Shown here piece by piece: positions 50,415-55,391 of a DNA stretch of 64,000 bases (positions are counted from its first letter, which is position 1; every line of letters begins with the position of its first letter). This stretch comes from a bacterium (GTDB lineage: Bacteria > Desulfobacterota > Deferrisomatia > Deferrisomatales > BM512). A program made the position numbers and the translations under genes. The notes under the pieces are model-generated. The model did no database searches. It was not told the DNA's origin and was given only the letters and a program-made list of their open reading frames with translations. The stretch covers positions 62,001-126,000 of the forward strand of contig SCTA01000022.1 of assembly GCA_004322275.1 (NCBI GenBank). The letters run 5' to 3'.

Positions 50415-51962
50415 CTAAGTGTACTTTTTGGGTTCTATCCTGTACTTGGTAATTTTGTAGCCCAAAATCCTCTGGGTGGTTTTAAGCCTCTGGGCCGCTT
50501 TTCTGATGTTTCCCCTGGTGGCCTTCAGGGCGTCGATTATTATATCCGTCTCGAAATTCGCCACCGCCTCGTCGAAGGAGAGGTCTTCTCCGCCTCCCGA
50601 GGTGGCTTCCGCCGTCTGGAGGGTCGGCGGCAGGTGGTAGGAGTGGATCGCGGGGCCATTGCACAAAAGGACGGCCCTTTCGATGCAGTTCTCAAGCTCT
50701 CGCACGTTTCCCGGCCAGTGGTAGCTCATCAGCATGTCTATAGCGGGGGTGGTTATCCTGCGTATCTCCTTGCCGTTTTCGCGTGAGTACTTTTCGAGGA
50801 AGTGCTCCGCCAGAAGGAGGATGTCGGTCTTTCTCTCGCGCAGGGCGGGCATGTAGATGGGGAAAACGTTTAGCCGGTAGTAGAGGTCTTCCCTGAATTT
50901 TCCCTCTTTTATCTCTTCTTCGAGATTCCTGTTCGTGGCGGCGATTATGCGCAGGTTGATCTTTATCGTCTTCACCCCGCCGACCCGCTCGAACTCCTTT
51001 TCCTGCAGAACCCGAAGGAGCTTTACCTGAATCGCCGGGTTCAGGTCCCCTATCTCGTCCAGAAAGATGGTGCCCCCCGAGGCAAGCTCGAAGCGCCCCT
51101 GCTTGGCTTCCGCAGCCCCGGTGAAGGCCCCCTTCTCATGGCCGAAAAGCTCGCTTTCGATGAGGGTCTCGGGAATGGCGGAACAGTTGACCTTTATGAG
51201 CGGCCTGCCGGAGCGAAGGCTCCCGTAGTGGATGGCGTTCGCCACCAGTTCCTTTCCCGTGCCGCTCTCGCCCCTTATGAGCACGGTGGCGTTGGACTTG
51301 GCGACCTGGGCTATCATGGCGTAGACGTGGTGCATCGCCTTGGAGTTGCCGATGATGTTGGAGATGTTGTACTTGGTGACGAGGTCGGTCTGGAGGCGCT
51401 CTTTTTCGGCGACCAGTTTTGAGCGCTCGTCGTCGCGCATTTTGTGAACCTTGACCGCCTGGCCGATCATCGAGGCGATGATTTCGAGGAGGCGCACGTC
51501 CTCGGTGAAGCTCACATCGGGGCTGAAGAGGCGATCCACGCTCAGGGCTCCGACCGTCTCGTCCCCGGCCTTGATGGGCACGCACAAAAAGGAGATGTCT
51601 TCTTTCGAGATGTCTCCCCTGCTCTTGGTCCTGTTGAGGAAGAGGGGCTCCTTGCCGATGGACTGGACGACCATCGGCTCTCCGGTCGCCACGACGGTGC
51701 CTGTGACGCCCTCGCCCAGCCGGTAGCGCCCGCGCTTCTTCTCGGCTTCGGTCAGCCCGAGCGAGGTTTCTATCTCTATATCGCCCGTCAGCCTGTTGAG
51801 CAGGGCGACCGTCCCCCTGTTCATGCCGAGTTTTTTGGACAGAACCCCGAGTATTTTTTCGAGCACCTGCCGCAGGTCGAGACTTGCGGCAAGGGCCTGA
51901 CTCACCTCGTAAAGCGCCGTCAGTTCGTGGATTTTATTCTGTAGCGAATCTCTGCTCAACAT
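50415..51962 (-). CDS. NifA-like sigma-54-dependent transcriptional activator (GAF-AAA+-HTH)
   Basis: 515 residues from the ATG at 51962 (GGAGGAG before it); the longer frame from 52058 has no RBS. GAF domain (about 25-170, '[20 protein letters not shown]', '[20 protein letters not shown]'), AAA+ domain (about 200-435) with [18 protein letters not shown], the sigma-54 contact loop GAFTGA, '[20 protein letters not shown]', '[20 protein letters not shown]' and '[20 protein letters not shown]', then a Fis-type HTH ([20 protein letters not shown]). The layout is that of NifA/FhlA-type activators. Divergent from a GlnA-like gene, hence nitrogen control is an attractive guess. Confidence 0.93.
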
Positions 51963-52000
51963 GGTTCTCCTCCGTGTGCGCCACAAAAGTACACGACTTT

Positions 52001-52014
52001 TTGTATAATTACAA
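52001..52014. promoter_or_regulatory. inverted repeat in the activator/GlnA-like divergent region
   Basis: TTGTATAATTACAA: 5-bp arms TTGTA/TACAA around TAAT; also contains TATAAT in the plus direction (52004-52009) but without a decent -35. About 40 bp before the activator start. Could be an operator or simply a promoter. Confidence 0.35.
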
Positions 52015-52148
52015 TAATGTAGTGGTAAAATCATCGTCGAGCATTTTTGTATCGTCATTCTTGGCTCGTGCGCTTTGCGCCAACTCTGTTAAAGTATCAG
52101 GCCATGATTTGCGGGGGGTTTCCCCCGCTCGGGCCGAAGGAGTTTTTG

Positions 52149-53537
52149 ATGGATCAAAAGAGCGTTATGAACTTCGCCCGCGAAAACGAATGTGTTTTCG
52201 CGGACGTTAAATTTTCCGACTTTCTCGGGCAGTGGCGGCGCATCGGCGTCCCCATCCAGCAGTTTTCCTCCTCTGTTTTCGAGGAAGGGCTGAGTCTGGA
52301 TTCGTCCGCCCTGCCGGGCTGGAGCTCGAAGGGTTCGGGGCTGGTCCTCGTGCCCGACCCCTCGACCATGAGGGTCGATCCCTTTCCGAAGGCAAAGACG
52401 ATGAGCCTTATCGGCAGCGTCCGCGAAGGCTCTACCCGCGCCCCCTACCCTCTCGACCCGCGCAATATTGCGAAAAAGGCGGTGGAATTCATGGTTGCCG
52501 AGGGAATCGGGGAGACGGCGAGCTTCGGAGTCGAGCCCGGCTTTTTCATCTTCGACGACGTGCGCTTCGACCAGACCCGCAACAGCGCCTTCCACTTCGT
52601 CGATTCGGTGGAGGCCCAGTGGAACTCGGGGAGGGAGGAGGGACCGAACCTCGGCTACAAGGGCAAGGCGGGGGAAAGCCGCTATCCGGTGCAGCCCTAC
52701 GATTCTCTGGCGGACCTTCGCCAGGAGATGGCGCAGGAGCTTATCCGCCTGTGCATCGGGGTCGAGCGCGAGCAGCACGAAGCCGCCTCGGCGGGGCAGT
52801 GCGAGCTGGTGCTCAGGCACGCGAACCTCGTCGAGGAGGCCGACAACCTCCAGTGGCTGAAGTACGTCCTTCGGAACACCGCCCTTCGGAGCGCCAAGAC
52901 CCTCACCTTCATGCCGAAGCCGGTCTTCGAGGAGCCCGGAAGCTCGATGCACGTGAGCCAGTCGCTCTGGCGCTCCGGCAAAAACCTCTTTTCCGGCGAG
53001 GAATACGGAGGGCTTTCCCAGACCGCCCTCCACTACGCCGGCGGCATTCTCCGTCACGCGCCCGCTCTTATGGCCCTCTGCAACCCCACGGCCAACTCCT
53101 ACCGGAGGCTCCTCACGAAGGGCGAGGTTCCGGTCGCCCTCTCCTATTCCGCCGTGGACAAAAACGCCGTGGTGCGAACCCCCCTCCACCCCGCCGGGGC
53201 AAAGGCGAGGCGGATAGAGTTTTGTCTGCCCGACCCTTCGGCGAACGGGTATCTGGCCTTCGCGGCTCTCCTGATGGCGGGAATCGACGGGATAATACAC
53301 CGCATCGAGCCCGGCGCTCCTCTCGAAGAGAAGCCGAAGACGAAAGCCGGCTGGATGCCCCAGTCTCTGGAAGAAGCCCTCCGGGCGCTTGAAAAGGACC
53401 ATTCTTTCCTCCTCGCCGGGGGGGTCTTTTCAAAGAACGCCGTAGAGCGCTGGATAGAGCTCAAGCTCGAACGCGAGGTCAGGCCGCTTGCCCTTCGCAC
53501 CACGCCCTACGAGTTTTCGCTCTATTACGACTGCTGA
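52149..53537 (+). CDS. glutamine-synthetase-like protein with altered active site
   Basis: 462 residues from the ATG at 52149 (GAAGGAG upstream). GlnA type I fold along its length: 'VPDPSTMRVDPF', 'DPRNIAKKAVEFM', 'EQHEAASAGQCELVLRHANL', 'GSSMHVSQSLWRSGKNLFSG', 'ANGYLAFAALLMAGIDGI'. By eye against E. coli GlnA: Glu129 kept, Glu131 to Gly, Glu212 and Glu220 kept (211/219), His269 kept, His271 to Ser, Arg321 kept, Arg339 to Lys, Arg359 to Cys. The NLYDLPPEE adenylylation loop is deleted. Residue 131 is a metal ligand and 359 binds glutamate, so the enzyme may use another substrate or be a sensor. Divergent from a NifA-like activator. Confidence 0.88.
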   Translation: MDQKSVMNFARENECVFADVKFSDFLGQWRRIGVPIQQFSSSVFEEGLSLDSSALPGWSSKGSGLVLVPDPSTMRVDPFPKAKTMSLIGSVREGSTRAPYPLDPRNIAKKAVEFMVAEGIGETASFGVEPGFFIFDDVRFDQTRNSAFHFVDSVEAQWNSGREEGPNLGYKGKAGESRYPVQPYDSLADLRQEMAQELIRLCIGVEREQHEAASAGQCELVLRHANLVEEADNLQWLKYVLRNTALRSAKTLTFMPKPVFEEPGSSMHVSQSLWRSGKNLFSGEEYGGLSQTALHYAGGILRHAPALMALCNPTANSYRRLLTKGEVPVALSYSAVDKNAVVRTPLHPAGAKARRIEFCLPDPSANGYLAFAALLMAGIDGIIHRIEPGAPLEEKPKTKAGWMPQSLEEALRALEKDHSFLLAGGVFSKNAVERWIELKLEREVRPLALRTTPYEFSLYYDC

Positions 53538-53544
53538 CGCGGTT

Positions 53545-54582
53545 TTGGCGAAGGAAAACCCCGCGCCTCGCGGCGCGGTCAGCGTGATAATCCCTGTGCT
53601 CGACGAGGAAGAGTCTCTGGGCAGCCTCCTTGGCGACCTATCCCGCCAGAGGGGAATCCGTCTTCAGGTAATCGTCGCCGACGGAGGCTCCAAAGACCGC
53701 ACCAGGGCCGTTTTCGACTCCTTCGAGGGTGAAAACTTCCTCTGGGTGGACGCGCCGAGGGGCAGGGGCGCGCAGCTCAACGCGGGGACAAAGGCGGCGC
53801 TCCATGAAGACCTTCTCTTTCTCCACGCGGACACGCGGATTAGGGATGAAGACCTCATCTCCGGCGGATTCGCCGCGATGGGAAGGGAGTGCGCCGGGTC
53901 CAGCCGCGTTCTGGGCCATTTCGCGACGGGTTTTCACGACCGCCCCCTCGATTTCACCCATTTTTTCCTGATGGCGAAGACAACGCAGAATCTTCCCGAG
54001 TGCGTCAACGGCGATCAGGGGTTCTGGCTCCGGAAAGGGTTTTTCCGGGAGCTCGGCGGTTTTGACGACGCCCTGCCCTACCTTGAGGATATGCGGCTCG
54101 CGTATCAGGCCTTTGCCGGGGGAAAAATCGCCCTCCTCCCCGGAAAGCTGGAGACCTCTTCGAGGCGCTTCGGAGCCCAGGGGCCAAAAAAGAGGCTCCT
54201 TCTCAACGCGCTGATACGGCTTGCCCACGAAGCGGACGCGAGGGAGTTTTACGGAAGGGCCGGGACTCTCTACGGGGAGCAGGCCAAAGCCGGCGCGCTT
54301 AGGATCACCCCCTTTTTTGACGCCCTGTGGAAGGAAGGGAAAAGGGAGGGGAGATGGCGTTTCATGCGAAAGCTCTGGAAGTTCGGCGCGCGAAACTCCT
54401 GGCAGGTTCCCTTCTGGCTGGACTCGCGGCGGGCTTTCCGAAGGGGATACGAAGATCCCGAGGGGCTGGCCGCAAAACCCGAAAGGCTGATTTTACGGGT
54501 AATATCCGGGGAATTCGTGGTATTTTTCTTCTTCGCGGCCCTGTTCGCCGGAAGAATAATCGAATTTAAAAGCAGGAAGTAA
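53545..54582 (+). CDS. family 2 glycosyltransferase (TIGR04283-like)
   Basis: 345 residues from a TTG at 53545, 7 bp after the GlnA-like stop; an ATG at 53488 inside that gene is the alternative. GT-A fold: VSVIIPVLDEEESLGSLLGD, 'VIVADGGSKDRTRAVF', 'APRGRGAQLNAGTKAA', DxD-like LHADTRI, 'GDQGFWLRKGFFRELGGFDD', 'YLEDMRLAYQAFAGGKIALL' with the Glu-Asp catalytic pair. C-terminal membrane helix (about 320-340, FVVFFFFAALFAG). Resembles the GT2 subgroup often linked to arsenosugar-like or surface-sugar modification, but the acceptor is unknown. Confidence 0.85.
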   Translation: MAKENPAPRGAVSVIIPVLDEEESLGSLLGDLSRQRGIRLQVIVADGGSKDRTRAVFDSFEGENFLWVDAPRGRGAQLNAGTKAALHEDLLFLHADTRIRDEDLISGGFAAMGRECAGSSRVLGHFATGFHDRPLDFTHFFLMAKTTQNLPECVNGDQGFWLRKGFFRELGGFDDALPYLEDMRLAYQAFAGGKIALLPGKLETSSRRFGAQGPKKRLLLNALIRLAHEADAREFYGRAGTLYGEQAKAGALRITPFFDALWKEGKREGRWRFMRKLWKFGARNSWQVPFWLDSRRAFRRGYEDPEGLAAKPERLILRVISGEFVVFFFFAALFAGRIIEFKSRK

Positions 54583-54587
54583 CCGCC

Positions 54588-55391
54588 TTGTCAAAAGAGC
54601 TTGTCACCCCCTTCACGGGCAAATCCATTTACGAAACCAGCCGGGAAAGGAAACCCTCCCTCCTCGCGCGCCTTTTTCCCTCGCTCTATTTTTATTCCGG
54701 CGTCTTCTGTACGGTAATCCGCGCGTCCCGTAGGGCGAAACGCGGCAGGTACGGCTGCCCGGAGTGGGTGGGAAGCTCTCTCGAAATACTGGAGCGCACC
54801 GAGGCGACGGGGGGGAAGGTAACCGTTGAGGGGCTCGACCGTTTGAATTCGTTTTCCGGCCCCCGCGTCTACGTCGGAAACCACATGTCCACCCTGGAAA
54901 CCTTCCTTTTGCCTTCGATTCTCCGGCCTGTAGGCCCCGTGACTTTTATCGTCAAGAAGGAGCTTCTTGACTACCCCGTCTTCGGCCACGTGATGCGCTC
55001 GCGAAAGCCGATAGCCCTCGGCAGGAGCAATCCCAGGGAAGACCTCGAAACGGTTTTTCGTGAGGGAAAAGAGCTTCTGGCCTCCGGAGTCAGCGTTATC
55101 GTCTTTCCGCAGACCACCCGCGCGGAGCGCTTCGACCCCTCGCGCTTCAACACGATAGGGGCGAAACTGGCAGCCCGCGCCAAGGTCCCTCTCGTGCCGG
55201 TGGCGCTGAAGACGGATTTTTGGGGTACCGGGAAGATGATAAAGGACTTCGGGGTTATTTCCCCCGAAAAGCGGGTGTACTTCTCTTTCGGGGAGCCGAT
55301 AGCCCCCCAGGGGAAGGGAGACGAGGCTCACCGGGCGACGGTGGAGTTCATCTCCGGGGCCCTTGGCCGCTGGGAAAAACTACCGGGGTAG
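54588..55391 (+). CDS. PlsC-family lysophospholipid acyltransferase
   Basis: 267 residues, TTG start with AGGAAG upstream, 5 bp after the glycosyltransferase. Acyltransferase fold: block I GNHMSTLETFLLPSILR, block II 'LDYPVFGHVMRSRKPIALGR', block III FPQTTRAERFDPSRFNTIGA, block IV 'KVPLVPVALKT'. Two family-invariant positions differ: the Asp of HxxxxD is Glu (HMSTLE) and the Glu-Gly of FPEGTR are Gln-Thr (FPQTTR). It may act on lysophosphatidate, but the specificity is uncertain. Overlaps the convergent membrane-protein gene by 12 bp. Confidence 0.87.
   Translation: MSKELVTPFTGKSIYETSRERKPSLLARLFPSLYFYSGVFCTVIRASRRAKRGRYGCPEWVGSSLEILERTEATGGKVTVEGLDRLNSFSGPRVYVGNHMSTLETFLLPSILRPVGPVTFIVKKELLDYPVFGHVMRSRKPIALGRSNPREDLETVFREGKELLASGVSVIVFPQTTRAERFDPSRFNTIGAKLAARAKVPLVPVALKTDFWGTGKMIKDFGVISPEKRVYFSFGEPIAPQGKGDEAHRATVEFISGALGRWEKLPG

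Follow-up and report, generated by a model that had tools for sequence, protein, structure and literature searches.

A type I glutamine synthetase homologue with a degraded active site is maintained as a protein at the glnA locus in two species of a bacterial genus

The window analysed here, a stretch of 64,000 nucleotides of bacterial DNA, contains an open reading frame for a glutamine synthetase (GS) homologue that, judged by sequence and synteny, represents in its genus the former housekeeping glnA of the whole order, the gene of type I GS (GSI) (Table 1). Loss of catalysis in this GSI, which has been kept at the glnA locus, is well supported by the alignment, and a continued non-catalytic use of the protein is moderately supported. 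We consider it moderately probable that it represents a GSI pseudoenzyme left in place after takeover by a GSIII and kept for a non-catalytic role, probably one of protein contact.

Table 1. Features of the glnA locus in the window
Feature	Position	Strand	Remarks
NifA-family GAF-AAA(GAFTGA)-Fis activator	50415..51962	-	Orthologues in 12/12 genomes of the order; that of the congener is 84% identical
Intergenic region common to pseudo-GS and divergent activator	51963..52148	.	Lacks a convincing sigma-54 -24/-12 promoter, which most relatives have
ACAATAATGT, one-mismatch copy of the palindrome ACAATNTTGT	52011..52020	.	Sole copy in the pseudo-GS/activator intergenic region
Probable ribosome-binding site AAGGAG	52137..52142	+	Read from sequence
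GSI (GlnA) pseudoenzyme (pseudo-GS)	52149..53537	+	ATG to stop, 462 aa; retains the GSI fold and the GSI-beta insert; has a broken active site and no adenylylation loop
GT2 glycosyltransferase	53538..54582	+	Directly 3' of pseudo-GS; near TIGR04283, under its cut-off; start approximate; neighbour also in the congener
Acyltransferase	54588..55391	+	Second gene 3' of pseudo-GS; neighbour also in the congener

The encoded protein contains the GS catalytic domain (Pfam Gln-synt_C, E=1.1e-97) and a GS beta-grasp domain, and among solved structures GSI enzymes were closest. Its score of 462.7 bits with TIGR00653, the NCBIfam model for active GlnA, lies above the curated cut-off of 429.15, and automatic annotation would therefore name it a working GlnA, a trap that would put the wrong enzyme into metabolic models of the group. 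Orthologues with an intact GSI from the same order are 53-57% identical to it. In a maximum-likelihood tree the window protein and its orthologue from G001, the one further genome available for the genus, split from all others with a support of 100, with branch lengths of 0.61 for the stem of the pair and 0.30 and 1.34 for its tips, compared to approximately 0.28 between two intact orthologues of the order. This bipartition and the activator synteny point to vertical descent of the pseudo-GS from the order's glnA. A GC-rich hairpin (GCGGGGGGTTTCCCCCGC) was noted at positions 52111-52128, just 5' of the ribosome-binding site.

The losses in the active site were evaluated against 94 other GSI homologues, whose alignment has 114 columns with an invariance of 98% or more. 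Of these columns, 30 are changed in the window protein, while in a leave-one-out analysis the 94 homologues departed at a mean of 0.43 and a maximum of 6 columns, excluding chance or misalignment as the source of the replacements. The earlier note had listed the replacements E131G, H271S, R359C and R339K and the deletion of the NLYxLP-type adenylylation loop, and all of them proved to be in register with the homologues; the residues it had described as kept (E129, E212, E220, H269, R321 and E357) are indeed retained, as are E327, R344 and R355, and the loss of normal GS function that it implied is supported by the column analysis. Further changes (S53A, D64G, Y179R, H210Q and N264P) affect columns that are identical in 94/94 homologues. 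Residue roles were assigned from established GSI structural work on the n1/n2 metal ligands and the glutamate, phosphate and ammonium sites, with R359 and N264 belonging to the glutamate site, E131 to the n1 metal ligands, and Y179 and S53 to the ammonium site. On this assignment the metal-ligand set (E131, E212 and E220; E129, H269 and E357) is incomplete owing to E131G, and in the set lining the glutamate, phosphate and ammonium sites N264P, R339K, R359C, Y179R and S53A are found and R321 is kept. The residues that remain (E129, E212, E220, H269, R321, E327, R344 and E357) make some ligand binding or residual activity possible for the protein of the window species.

In G001 the degradation has gone considerably further. 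The orthologue is found at the equivalent locus, with the activator on one side and the glycosyltransferase and acyltransferase on the other, and departs at 58 of the 114 near-invariant columns. Its replacements include E129R, E131Q, H210R, E212G, H269P, E357C and R359K, and a deletion takes out much of the R321-R344 segment together with the flap residue E327. Because most metal, glutamate and phosphate ligands are gone and four in-frame deletions are present, the G001 copy, as read from its sequence, cannot be a GS, and the alignment leaves it without a recognisable ligand pocket. Of the 30 departures in the window protein, 25 also occur in G001 (approximately 15 expected; hypergeometric p=2.6e-5), four of them with the identical new residue, and much of the active-site loss thus probably predates the split of the two species. 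Retention in the G001 copy was 0.50 at universally invariant columns versus 0.41 at other order-conserved columns, and the active site is therefore no longer the focus of constraint.

Both copies are nevertheless open frames in which all indels are in frame. Over 425 codons the two share 0.55, 0.67 and 0.43 of their first, second and third codon positions, and a pairwise omega of 0.36 (95% CI 0.24-0.47) was obtained, where the activator gave 0.07 and pairs of intact glnA gave 0.13-0.16; this estimate comes from one nearly saturated species pair, and the purifying signal could in part be older than the loss of activity in each lineage. Simulated neutral frames were lost by 0.1 substitutions per site (P=0.01), far below the observed dS of approximately 1.5, indicating that the pseudo-GS has been kept as a protein. 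Protein-level selection persists without catalytic constraint. The best-kept stretch, residues 132-175 with 70% identity, would by comparison with known GSI structures take in the central-loop region. The predicted monomer has the GSI fold (pLDDT 83, pTM 0.89, TM 0.92 to 3ng0), with low confidence at residues 159-182 and 323-325. Loss of catalytic residues is accordingly combined with a predicted fold and protein-level selection that are both kept, in a pseudo-GS known from two species only.

These data bear on the main rival explanation, a possible although less likely one, in which the gene is a decaying relic that became redundant after takeover by GSIII and whose frame is still open since the loss is recent or since translation is needed against polarity on the downstream glycosyltransferase and acyltransferase genes. 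The faster evolution of the pseudo-GS, with an omega above that of normal glnA, and the loss of its apparent sigma-54 promoter are consistent with such a decay: no sigma-54 promoter above the shuffled background was found 5' of the pseudo-GS in either species, while one stands out for the intact glnA in five of six relatives. The clean absence of glnA between the activator and the glycosyltransferase in the two genomes of the sister genus (G002 and G004) points in the same direction. However, two intact frames at so high a synonymous divergence, an upper bound of omega below neutrality at 0.47 and deletions that are exclusively in frame are difficult to reconcile with decay, and polarity would not shield second codon positions, which are clearly better conserved than third positions.

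The gene of the glnA locus is also missing in G003, which represents a third genus, and a permissive tblastn search for a GS relic found none in the interval from activator to glycosyltransferase of G002 and G004, and none next to the activator of G003 or G006. Any role of the pseudo-GS is thus dispensable at the family level, given its clean absence in the sister-genus genomes. An intact GSI is divergently adjoined by the NifA-like activator in G005 and G007-G011, six further genomes of the order, the activators being 67-73% identical. From this distribution the pairing of activator and glnA is evidently ancestral and older than the loss of the active site, and it therefore adds no evidence for a new role; the proposal of the earlier note that the divergent activator strengthens a link to nitrogen loses its force, as the same pairing is seen beside ordinary glnA.

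A search for a normal glnA, which had been recommended earlier, revealed no second GSI in the genome of the window (G000), where the sole other GS found is a 713-aa GSIII on contig C32. This GSIII is 79-82% identical to those of G005, G006 and G008 and its catalytic motifs, inspected by eye, look intact. We infer that it took over glutamine synthesis. G002 and G004 carry a GS of roughly 450 aa elsewhere in the genome. The fragmented G001 assembly, for which a completeness of 100% is given, yielded no intact GS, whatever the class; GSIII gave no match, and searching by way of the flanking peptidase gene did not reveal a contig in synteny. Such a result would follow from an assembly gap or from an organism that depends on glutamine, and on the available contigs the takeover by GSIII does not account for this species. 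The adenylyltransferase GlnE was found in all four sampled genomes with intact GSI (G005, G007, G008 and G009), and a match over the cut-off was obtained in none of the other sampled genomes, namely G000 and G001 with the pseudo-GS and G002, G004 and G006 without GSI. With the adenylylation loop deleted and GlnE absent from G000, the pseudo-GS does not show the features of GSI-beta/GlnE regulation.

Sites that match or nearly match the palindrome ACAATNTTGT lie between the activator and the GS gene in most of the order; elsewhere, such a site is present at the activator (G003), a short distance 5' of the GS genes (G002 and G004) or 5' of GSIII (G005). In G000 we counted 11 sites in 2.88 Mb, two of which are situated upstream of GSIII, 107 bp apart. 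The palindrome may be regarded as a putative operator of the NifA-like activator, although another regulator could bind it instead. Among the papers listed in a literature search, the sequence turned up only in unrelated ones, and no TGT-N(8-12)-ACA sites were present in the intergenic region between activator and pseudo-GS. At the GSIII gene itself (G000:C32:86985-89123) the two palindromes, ACAATTTTGT, lie 84 and 191 bp ahead of the likely ATG, and further out, at about 346 bp, there is a sigma-54-like site. Elsewhere in this genome, at about 26-35 kb of contig C1, nifK-, nifE-, nifN- and nifB-like frames were read by eye, and tandem P-II genes lie within this nif-like cluster (C1:29991-30689), suggesting from sequence a diazotroph with NifI-type regulation.

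Under the preferred reading of a retained pseudoenzyme, the former housekeeping glnA would have become a catalytically dead protein with a GS fold in this genus, while GSIII on the other contig would have assumed glutamine synthesis and the activator would now act on GSIII with the ACAATNTTGT palindrome as its operator. The pseudoenzyme would persist by virtue of its folded, probably ring-forming body rather than of substrate binding, and its most plausible role would be regulation by protein contact in nitrogen control. A more specific version, in which GSI, at its original locus, became a protein devoted to regulating or scaffolding nitrogen assimilation without catalysis and acts on the old activator or on the replacement GSIII, with the operator of the activator in the GSIII promoter, can be offered only tentatively and is rather doubtful. 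The group offers a natural experiment in losing a central enzyme, since active-site loss has reached different stages in two species, sister genera do not have the gene, a replacement enzyme is present and GlnE has been co-lost; the pseudo-GS allows one to ask what the GS body does without catalysis.

An unlikely alternative is that the pseudo-GS senses the nitrogen state, binding ATP, glutamate or glutamine without turnover and controlling the divergent NifA-like activator, by analogy with Bacillus GlnR/TnrA. The many ligand residues that remain in the window species, the conserved pairing with the activator, and the precedents of GS acting on transcription factors (PMC9249791) and of separable sensing in fungal GS (PMC3829961) would fit such a function, which the earlier note had raised. 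The suggestion gains from the window protein, but not from G001, where hardly any of the ligand residues survive and the E327-flap segment is missing; moreover, the activator pairing is older than the change in the active site. A new amine ligase, the other function raised there, in which glutamate or another acid is joined to another amine as is known for GlnA3/GlnA4-type relatives, could draw on the predicted fold and the several catalytic residues retained in the window species, but is highly improbable and was rejected on the evidence of family scores (161.1 with the PuuA-like gamma-glutamylputrescine synthetase model NF045547, far under its cut-off of 650) and by the G001 orthologue without most metal ligands, with metal, phosphate, glutamate and ammonium sites (R359, N264, E131, Y179 and S53 among them) damaged together.

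Additional GS genes were observed in further genomes. In Ignavibacteria (L095, L102, L108, L109 and L110) a second GS-like gene, about 32% identical, is located just upstream of GSI, and in L095 and L109, the two that were aligned, its catalytic residues looked intact. The metagenome-assembled genome L044 has two tandem GSI copies, one of which departs at 6 near-invariant columns.

Among the papers listed in literature searches for a GS without activity, there was no bacterial precedent. Compared to type I GS (GlnA, GSI-beta), the pseudo-GS is similar in fold, length, GSI-beta insert, C-terminal helix, glnA synteny and overall identity, but differs in the changed columns, which include E131, R359, R339, Y179, H210, H271, N264 and S53, in the deleted loop and in a genome without GlnE. 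With the gamma-glutamyl-amine ligases (PuuA, GlnA2-GlnA4) it has in common the GS fold and altered surroundings of the ammonium site, but it scores far under the family cut-off and has lost glutamate and metal residues as well. Lengsin, a GS-like protein of the vertebrate lens, has the GS fold without GS activity and a presumed structural role; it belongs to another GS branch and another kingdom, and is likened to the pseudo-GS by description. In Desulfovibrio vulgaris, DVU1949 is a sigma-54 activator of the one-component type, for which a regulon in nitrogen metabolism has been predicted, with DVU3392 listed among the targets (PMC4641369). The activator of the window is likewise of the one-component sigma-54 kind, and the two are likened by type and regulon. 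DVU3392 is, we assume, glnA. In Bacillus the feedback-inhibited GS, a working enzyme, controls GlnR and TnrA, and GlnR binds its active site to become a repressor (PMC9249791). The adjacency of a GS and a nitrogen regulator is similar in the window, but the GS found there has a broken pocket and its neighbour activates transcription with sigma-54.
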